From the NCBI GenBank assembly GCA_964017065.1, contig OZ024790.1, positions 3,864,458 through 3,928,457 on the forward strand: 64,000 bases of DNA, written 5' to 3'. A program made the translations under genes and the position numbers. The stretch's first letter is position 1, and each line of letters begins with the position of its first letter. Below are positions 17,301 to 20,300 of the stretch, piece after piece. Source of the stretch: Haliclona indistincta. Taxonomy: Eukaryota > Porifera > Demospongiae > Haplosclerida > Chalinidae. Under the pieces are notes generated by a model. That model had not been told where the DNA came from. It did no database searches and worked only from the letters and a program-made list of their open reading frames with translations.

Positions 17301-20300
17301 TGATCTAGGAAATCAGGTTCAGTCGATGGGTAATGGAGTCACTTATGTAAATGTACCTCTTGGTGACGGAGCGACCGTACATGTGTTTGTCAGAGTCTAT
17401 TCAGGGGCATCTCAGCCGGTGAGTAAAGGGTTAATATAGTTAGACGGGTAGGGAGATTGTAGCCAATATGTTGCAGTACAATATTCGTGGTAGCGATGAC
17501 AGTTTAGGTCTTGCCAGTGGTTGAGAAAAAGATGCATGTGCCTTGTTGACAGACTGGTTCACCTGCAGTAGAAGACACAGTCATTGCTTCTTCAAAAAGA
17601 CTCGGTATCTTTTCATTGCTTCTTTTATCTTTGCATAGTGGTCTTGTATTGAGGAGCATTGTCTCACTGACCAGTAGAGGTTTAGATAGAACTGTCCATA
17701 CTTACAGTCTAGCCCACGGAGGTTCTAGAAGTTGTTATGCAATAGTAGGGGCAGCTACTCTGATATTATTGTGATGGTTTGTGTGATTTCTCTTTGTCCT
17801 ATAGATGCAACCATACAGAGACAGTGACATTATTCAGATAAGTACGTTCAACTAAGACTCACCCATCTAATTACTCACACACTCGCACACACGTTCACTC
17901 ACTAACTCACTGCAACCACTCACTCACTCATTCATTCACTCAGTCACTCACTCAGTCACTCACTCACTCATTCACTCAGTCACTCACTCACTCACCCTCA
18001 CTCACTCACTCACTCACTCATTCACTCAATCACACATTCAGTCACTCACTCACTCACTCCAAACAATATTTACTCTTTCCTTTCTCCCTCCCTCAGCTAC
18101 ACCTCCTAATCTTGCTGTGATTCTGATTCCAATTTTTTTCATTCTGGCTATAATACTCATCTTCCCGCTCGTGGTGATACTCATTGTCATCTTCTTGTGA
18201 GACCATTATCTTGCCTCTCATGACTCCCCTTTCATGACCGTCTCTTTTTCCTTCAGTGTTCGCAAGTCAAATCATCGTGGTGGGCAATATTTAGAGGTCA
18301 TGAAGAGCGAGAGTTTCTCTAAGGGCTATGTCAGTAACCAGCGCCATGCCAACGCAGCTGCTAGGAAAAACAGTGATATTGAAATGAAGGGAATGCCAGC
18401 AGCTGGACCTCGTAAGTACCTGCTTCATTGGGTTTGAATTCTTAGAGGCTGCTGACAAATGATTTTTTCCTAACACCTGAAAATAATTTGGCTGTAAATT
18501 CCTATTTTGGGCAGTTTTGTAAATTGGAGCATTATTTGAAATCAAGTGAACTTGACTTGTTCGCTTAGTGTTGTATGTATGATTATGCACTCTGCATGTG
18601 TCACTGCTTATGAACGATTGCTGATGCTGTTGTACAGGTCCTAACCTCTCTGTGATGAATGCTGACGTGTTTACATCGACCGGACACAGCACACTGTTGA
18701 TGTGTGAGGTATCTGCTAGTGGACCACTCACTGTCACCTGGAGCAGAGGTAAGAGACACTCATCTCACTGCCTCCTCTCTCTCTCTCTCTCTCTCTCTCT
18801 CTCTCTCTCTCTTTTCTCTCTCTTTTCTCTCTCTGTCTGTCTCTCTGTCTGTCTGTCTGTCTCTCTGTCTGTCTGTCTGTCTGTCTGTCTGTCTCTCTCT
18901 CTCTCTCCCTCTCTCTCTCTCTCTCTCTCTCCTCTCTCTCTCTCCCTCTCTCTCTCTCTCTCTCTCTCTCTCTTCCTCTCTCTCTCTCTCTGTCTGTCTA
19001 TCTCCCTCCCTTCCTCCCTCCTCTCCCTCCCTCCCTCCCTCCCTCCATACTCTTTCTCGTGTATTTCGATCTCCTGTGGGTTTTATCAGTGGCTGCTTCT
19101 GAGTTCAGATATATCTGTTTCTCTGCTATGCTTCTAATATTGATTTCTGTCTATCTCTGTTGTCCAGATGGAAAGCCACTCCAGGACCCTCAGTATCAGG
19201 TGCTTGCCGACCATTCGTTGTTGATAGCAGAGACCAAGCTGTATGACGAGGGTATCTATACTGTACAAGCTAGTGTTAATGGCGGTCGAGCAGCTGAAGA
19301 GCAAGTCAGAGTTACCGTATTCGACCCACAGCCTCCAGAAAGTGAGTTTCAATGTTATAGTAGACGGTGAAATGAGTTACTGTATTAAATTGCTTATACT
19401 CTAGTTAGTAGTTACAATGTTATAGTAGACAGAGTTACTGTATTAAATTCGACATACTGTTACAACAGCATGCGTTTCCCATTATGGGAAACGCTGTTCT
19501 TTCGCACAAAATATTTTGCGCGATCGCCTACGAAAATTCATATGAATATCAATAAGGGCCCGCCTCCTTGAAGAAACTGTTTTATTAAATAACTGGCTAC
19601 TTCATTGTCAGTTCATAATAGTTTCGTGATAACATTTAATTCATTTCTCTTTCAGGTAATATCATTTATCTATGGTGTGTTCTGTTTTCTGTTGTTAATA
19701 ACGTATTATTTGTGAGCGGATTTGAGAAAAAGTGTCACTTCGCGATTGTAATTTTTGAACACACGCCTGTTTTCAAATGGCCGTTAGTCGGTCAAATATT
19801 ATTGAAACTCAATGAAATTTTTTGTATATATTTGATCATTCTGCTTGCTGTATGTCAAATTTTAAAGCCATGGGACCAAATTTGGATTAATGCCAGCAAG
19901 TTGAAAACGTGTGTTAGTTCGAAAATTACATGCGCGAAGTGACCCCTTTTCTCAAATCCGCTCACATTTATGTTTATTCTTTTTTTCTTCTTCTTTCAGC
20001 TGATTCTGACCATCTTCCTGTGACTGTGAGTGAGTTCACAGAGAGGATGGCTATCCTTCGTGCCTCAATGGACGAGGGACTAGACGATGAATACTCAGTG
20101 AGTTACAGTGATACTTGAACCATTGTGTTGCTTACGAGTGGTCTGTGCTGTCTACAGGACGTAGACCTGGAGTGGAATTTCACTAGTTATGCTGCTAAGC
20201 TAGTCGTCAATCATACCAAGAACAGATACGTCAATATCATACCTTGTGAGTAGGGTCTATAGTTTATACCAATGCACCGCATGCACAAATCATTAAATAG

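Follow-up and report, generated by a model that had tools for sequence, protein, structure and literature searches.

Receptor tyrosine phosphatases (RPTPs) combine diverse outer domains with conserved inner phosphatases, and the human RPTP subgroups carry their Ig domains in the extracellular part, as described in part of PMC10815196. The gene studied here resembles the R2A, or LAR-type, receptors (LAR, PTPRS, PTPRD), with which it shares an ectodomain of Ig and FN3 modules, one membrane helix, an active-looking D1 and a degenerate D2. The ectodomains differ in composition, with three Igs and five to nine FN3 repeats in the LAR type (from the same part of PMC10815196) versus six Igs and about five FN3-like exons in our gene. 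A further difference lies on the inner side of the membrane. We take the LAR type to have no folded domain between the helix and D1, and in the LAR types that we retrieved this distance is 52-81 residues with no Ig; our gene departs from them, having 160 residues and an I-set Ig at that place.

The region between membrane and D1 has been discussed for RPTP-alpha, for which a wedge at the start of D1 was proposed to inhibit in dimers, a proposal that is disputed (PMC2638020, in part). For sponges, PMC5336234 deals, in part, with a single Amphimedon sequence, which belongs to the R3 type. Our literature search, which left subscription papers mostly outside, found no report of an Ig between an RPTP helix and D1, and a description elsewhere is possible. 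The public database names of sponge proteins, as far as listed, are silent on a cytosolic Ig.

Exon anatomy of the gene

The window, the 64-kb stretch of DNA analysed here, corresponds to C8:3864458-3928457 of an assembly of 144 Mb in 46 contigs, which was also the assembly searched. Reading the locus exon by exon, we obtained a gene model on the plus strand (2400-27370, 1858 residues), the 5' end of the gene being outside the model. All splice borders are GT-AG, with the single exception of a GC-AG intron at 4917, and the phases are continuous. The encoded order is six ectodomain Igs, FN3 repeats, one membrane helix, the I-set Ig, D1 and D2 (Table 1). The six ectodomain Ig exons are all phase 1-1, and the F-strand Cys motif is present in 6/6. 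The helix exon ends in phase 2, and the juxtamembrane exon and both exons of the inner Ig end in phase 1. D1 (20000-23278) carries WPDHG and HCSAGVGRTG, while the corresponding D2 motifs are HCSDGLGRTG and WSEHQ.

An earlier note on this DNA had described a helix exon, a basic juxtamembrane stretch and a polar linker, followed by an Ig encoded by two phase 1-1 exons and then D1. Our reading of the exons in this region agrees with that description.

Table 1. Features of the RPTP gene and of its Ig/D1 intron (window positions)
Feature	Positions	Strand	Remarks
Ectodomain Igs, six, single-exon each	2400-2678, 3170-3454, 4215-4502, 4662-4916, 6459-6767, 7158-7427	+	
FN3-like exons	8075-8353, 8894-9193, 11343-11687, 15540-15646, 16429-16588	+	FN3 assignment of single exons by eye
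Pre-membrane exons	16708-16786, 17154-17418, 17805-17841	+	Spliced model
Membrane-helix exon (NLAVILIPIFFILAIILIFPLVVILIVIFF)	18097-18196	+	Mean hydropathy 3.58 over 21 residues
Juxtamembrane exon, basic RKSNHRGG and polar linker	18257-18411	+	
Predicted cytosolic Ig, first half (LLMCEV..VTW)	18638-18748	+	Pfam I-set
Predicted cytosolic Ig, second half (DHSLLI..DEGIYTVQA..VRVTVF), and DPQPPE, a short proline-containing linker	19168-19341	+	
MITE with 71-nt inverted repeats, in the Ig/D1 intron	19711-19966		Holds the most hydrophobic open stretch of the intron
D1 phosphatase exons	20000-20097, 20158-20245, 20542-20618, 22405-22539, 22601-22720, 22973-23278	+	
D1-D2 linker and D2 exons	23618-23867, 24250-24320, 24623-24757, 25111-25248, 26328-26479, 26950-27085, 27296-27370 (stop)	+	

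Other elements were recorded along the gene. The FN3-like exon 11343-11687 (plus strand) contains RRRRQ, furin-like by its letters and reminiscent of the LAR processing site. The FN3-FN3 intron 11688-15539 holds a DDE_Tnp_4 transposase frame (13023-14018, plus strand, E=1.3e-33) and, on the opposite strand, a MADF/Myb-like frame (14084-14419, minus strand), a pair that we take to be a Harbinger-like arrangement. A (CT)n tract at about 18778-19050 separates the two Ig exons, and a TCAC/ATTC microsatellite of about 1.7 kb (20624-22370) lies in a D1 intron. The window also contains an open frame of another gene with an Ig (29599-30264, minus strand; Ig_3, E=3.6e-7).

An I-set Ig before D1

The earlier note had proposed an I-set-like Ig before D1, with a profile search as its check, and this search recovered the domain. 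Indeed, on the model from helix to D2 the Pfam I-set profile (PF07679) matched residues 92-172 with E=1.1e-11 and 45.0 bits, versus a cut-off of 23.7, and the match spans profile positions 7-90 of 90; the Ig sequence by itself reached 50.3 bits. With a profile that left out the window gene and its two LAR-like relatives (P0022 and P0023, see below), the window Ig still scored 29.8 bits, compared with 12.3 for the highest-scoring of 1000 shuffles. The core W34 and DEGIYTVQA (the DxGxYxxxA pattern) aligned with nine relatives. Taking profile scores and exon anatomy together, we therefore regard the window Ig as real as a sequence.

The B-F cysteine pair of the domain is incomplete: the B-strand Cys is kept and the F-strand place is occupied by Val (YTVQA), exactly the replacement of the second disulfide Cys that had been noted before. 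This pair is usual in extracellular I-set domains, and we take it as not required in cytosolic members. When the window Ig was compared with solved structures, a titin fragment was the top sequence match and adhesion receptors came next. Titin and myosin-binding protein C have an I-set fold in the cytosol, as we propose for the window Ig; they are not membrane receptors and carry no phosphatase.

Paralogs in the same genome

A second RPTP-like gene, RPTP-2, lies in the window at about 44500-51050 (plus strand), with an N gap after it (51356-51555). Its helix (about 47141-47224) and the start of its D1 (about 48640) were read by eye, and the genome search with the window Ig gave no Ig match between them, in agreement with the previous statement that RPTP-2 lacks the module at the corresponding place. 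Elsewhere in the genome the same search gave weak matches, and some of these are followed, about 1 kb downstream, by a match to a phosphatase. In all of the first 20 loci fetched (20/20), a strong hydrophobic segment was found upstream of the Ig and D1 matches downstream; each locus has several hydrophobic stretches, and the helix was picked by its place and by likeness between loci.

One locus, L021, yielded a spliced model of 760 residues with a helix, a juxtamembrane exon, an exon encoding the Ig together with the start of D1 (5954-6387), the rest of D1, and D2. Then, we searched the genome with the L021 segment from the Ig to the D1 start and obtained 45 matches; in 34 of these the frame has no stop and covers 124 or more of the 134 residues. 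A helix lies upstream of the Ig in 27 of the 29 loci examined (20/20 plus 7/9), which represent 29 of the 34 frames; L042 and L044 have no helix in the roughly 1.4 kb examined upstream. Among 20 aligned paralogs the Ig lies in one frame with a Cys at neither place, while the window type has two exons and one Cys.

Genes of this kind form clusters at C3:15.61-15.81 Mb, C5:0.92-1.04 Mb and C5:5.06-5.21 Mb, and partial and stop-bearing copies are also present among the matches. At C3:8941799-8954507, adjoining clusters of Ig matches on opposite strands include the two best matches of the window Ig apart from its own exons, with no phosphatase among the matches listed.

Relatives in other sponges

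Three protein searches were performed. The L021 query (residues 60-290) returned 21 proteins. Coverage of the region was 88-98% for Halichondria panicea P0001 and Geodia barretti P0002-P0004, and 26-61% for the remaining 17, Amphimedon among them. With the window query (residues 1085-1420), the best of 7,458 matches were Ephydatia muelleri P0022 (54% over 81%) and Dysidea avara P0023 (46% over 84%), both LAR-like and with the Ig placed as in the window gene; the other hits among the best 120 of the 7,458 cover 44-58%, and the non-sponge matches among these 120 are mostly LAR types. The Ig region of P0001 returned 16 proteins, all from Halichondria, and missed the known Geodia, Ephydatia and Dysidea relatives, P0023 lying outside its length range.

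The 156 retrieved proteins were annotated with one script. The order helix-Ig-D1 was called in 18, all from sponges (14 Halichondria, 2 Geodia, 1 Ephydatia and 1 Dysidea), and in each of them the helix is the last one called before D1. A helix and D1 with no called Ig between them were found in 131, a helix was not called in five, of which P0003 and P0146 carry an Ig ahead of D1, and a phosphatase was not called in two. Since all three queries contained the Ig, 18/156 is not a frequency. Likewise, the sampling of other animals was shaped by Ig-bearing queries, a Halichondria-only third result and the best 120 of 7,458 matches, and does not imply absence there.

The 18 proteins, which share helix-Ig-D1, are found among H. 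panicea P0001 and P0142-P0156, G. barretti P0002-P0004, P0022 and P0023. In P0001, P0002, P0004, P0022 and P0023 the best Pfam I-set stretch is the segment between helix and D1. The Ig profile used in this annotation was built from 11 sequences including P0001-P0004, P0022, P0023 and the window Ig, whose own scores are thus not independent; P0142 onward lie outside this profile, and the Pfam match is independent of it. Several sponge models differ from the window gene in having sushi or FN3 ectodomains, these further helix-Ig-D1 types occurring in H. panicea and G. barretti. Four Amphimedon queenslandica RPTPs (P0006, P0009, P0013 and P0014) have a helix and D1 as the window gene does, with no called Ig between them and, by eye, a multi-Tyr linker at that place; four models do not imply absence from the Amphimedon genome.

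The search for the same order in other sponge RPTPs, suggested in the earlier note, was thus positive in four named genera, and judging from these gene models helix-Ig-D1(-D2) is a wider sponge RPTP class, beyond one gene. The note had also read the Ig as a pair of exons inserted into a phase-1 intron of the juxtamembrane region, given that RPTP-2 lacks the module. As a private event this is unsupported, and we dropped the idea of an insertion in one gene, because the Ephydatia and Dysidea relatives have the Ig at the same place and dozens of paralogs have it in one open frame with the D1 start.

Signature of a predicted cytosolic domain

We aligned 27 Igs of the predicted cytosolic type (the 20 paralogs, the window Ig, P0001-P0004, P0022 and P0023). 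The F-strand place is Leu in 23, Val in 3 and Phe in 1, and Cys in 0/27; the six sponge models from other genera thus lack this Cys as the window Ig does. The B-strand Cys is retained in the window gene and P0022, and a Cys lies nearby in P0023. In a sample of both types, the F-strand Cys motif was found in 0/12 cytosolic versus 17/17 ectodomain Igs, and N-glycosylation sequons averaged 0.25 per cytosolic Ig (n=12) versus 3.9 per ectodomain Ig (n=17). The window Ig itself carries one sequon, and 2 of the 12 cytosolic slices contain two Cys, neither at the F-strand place. Furthermore, in 19/19 proteins the net charge is higher over the 15 residues that follow the helix than on the side preceding it, the value after the helix being 0 in P0023.

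The Cys, sequon and charge patterns are those predicted for a reducing, unglycosylated cytosol. Together with the gene anatomy and the gene models of four genera, they strongly support, at the level of sequence, the reading of the domain as a cytosolic I-set Ig.

Is there a second membrane helix?

A rival to this reading is an artefact, in which the Ig would truly lie outside, the helix exon being skipped and another helix preceding D1, or the Ig exons would never be used. The two Ig exons measure 111 and 174 bp, both divisible by three, so either or both can be skipped in frame. The gene model encodes no helix between Ig and D1. We then searched the six introns from the helix to D1 for frame-preserving open cassettes that could supply one. 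The Ig/D1 intron contains 50, of which 27 have at least 19 residues (5 inside, 9 straddling and 13 outside the MITE). Maximum hydropathy is 2.34 for the 14 inside or straddling the MITE and 1.73 for the 13 outside, so that the cassettes at 2.34 require MITE sequence. Immediately upstream of the MITE lies SNIIYLWCVLFSVVNNVLF, with a hydropathy of 1.63, which is whole only in listed cassettes that extend into the MITE. The hydrophobic cassettes of the intron that divides the Ig consist mainly of (CT)n repeat.

The MITE matches at least 40 places in the genome including the window (40 of 282 candidates scored), and the 39 other scored copies are 87-95% identical over at least 203 bases. Lying within this multi-copy element, the strongest hydrophobic stretch of the intron is a repeat and not a conserved exon. 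The earlier claim that no second helix lies before D1 thus stands for the gene model and for the relatives, which have none, and is weakened on paper by the cassettes of up to 1.73 outside the MITE; a weak second helix in this intron is conceivable, again on paper. In addition to the 18 public sponge models, the artefact has against it the single exon that joins Ig and D1 start in L021, the 34 frames continuous across both, and the cysteine and sequon patterns, and we consider it highly improbable. Conversely, we are close to certain, from the sequence, of the anatomy itself, that is, the order helix, I-set Ig, D1.

Origin and selection

In a tree of 29 Igs, the 12 cytosolic ones formed a group (83/83) that also takes in a single long-branched ectodomain Ig, and the window Ig grouped with those of Ephydatia and Dysidea at 87/78. 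The cytosolic/ectodomain label required 2 changes on this tree, versus 9.4 in shuffles (0/500 as low). A clean split (1 change) occurred in 3% of the bootstrap trees, and the bootstrap is not settled. The tree weakly suggests a single origin of the cytosolic Ig.

The dN/dS of the Ig was 0.25-0.31 between L021 and L034, L037 and L038 (Ks 1.2-1.35, near saturation) and 0.29 between L021 and L039 (Ks 2.7, saturated). Closer paralog pairs gave 0.3-1.1 on few changes, one pair being not computable, and near-identical paralogs were uninformative. These values bear on whether the Ig could be a passive spacer, having no partner and retained because it is harmless. The short-type sequences are only 20-27% identical to the window segment from Ig to D1 start, as a spacer would allow, yet the Ig is present in gene models of four named sponge genera, this genome has 34 more frames in which it is open, and the diverged pairs give a dN/dS of 0.25-0.31. 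We regard the spacer as improbable.

Structure model and proposed role

Structure prediction, another check proposed beforehand, was carried out on the Geodia relative P0002 and gave helix, Ig strands and phosphatase in that order. In the AlphaFold model (pTM 0.55; two Ig blocks at pLDDT 64 and 69) a helix spans 104-128, the Ig strands lie between 157 and 244, and a long helix at 266-291 precedes the phosphatase, no further helix being listed from 128 to 266. In a fold search with this model, phosphatases matching model residues 257-757 filled the result list, so this search tested D1/D2 and not the Ig.

On balance, we lean toward reading the window gene as a LAR-like RPTP whose I-set Ig, between helix and D1, acts as a cytosolic docking or positioning module; the docking role by itself is tentative, at somewhat below an even chance. 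In the reducing cytosol the Ig would fold with no disulfide and, fixed to the D1 start, would serve as a module for protein contacts. Since it adjoins the D1 start, it would be placed to bring a partner to D1 or to set the position of D1 at the membrane. The partner could be a substrate, the cytoskeleton or another receptor tail; once bound, it would position D1, and ectodomain binding may then alter the access of D1 to its substrate.

Self-association is the nearest competitor to docking. Here, cytosolic Ig-Ig contacts would set D1 spacing and dimer state, as a folded counterpart of wedge control. The phosphatase region opens with a long helix that comes directly after the Ig, and the linker is short and proline-containing in three LAR-like sequences of the alignment, features that would suit a fixed geometry; in the short type the linker is longer and acidic, which would blur it. 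The wedge model itself stems from RPTP-alpha; PMC2638020, in part, discusses juxtamembrane control and argues against an inhibitory wedge. We judge self-association rather unlikely, and think docking more likely than self-contact, with the spacer third.

Significance

An Ig between the membrane and D1, predicted in four sponge genera and in more than 30 frames of one genome, would represent a different inner RPTP architecture in an early animal branch. A broader scenario, which we offer as speculation and consider unlikely, is that an ancestral demosponge RPTP already had a cytosolic Ig before D1, which became a recognition module, so that in the dozens of receptors of this genome, many of them arranged in tandem, and in the Halichondria set, varied ectodomains were combined with an inner Ig choosing its own cytosolic partner. 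This scenario would involve loss in RPTP-2 and in the Amphimedon models, and absence or loss in other animals. If it were true, one Ig fold would recognise on both sides of the membrane. The sponge RPTPs with a predicted cytosolic Ig would offer a natural test of how the region from membrane to D1 controls activity, and their dozens of paralogs could be used to find what the cytosolic Ig binds.
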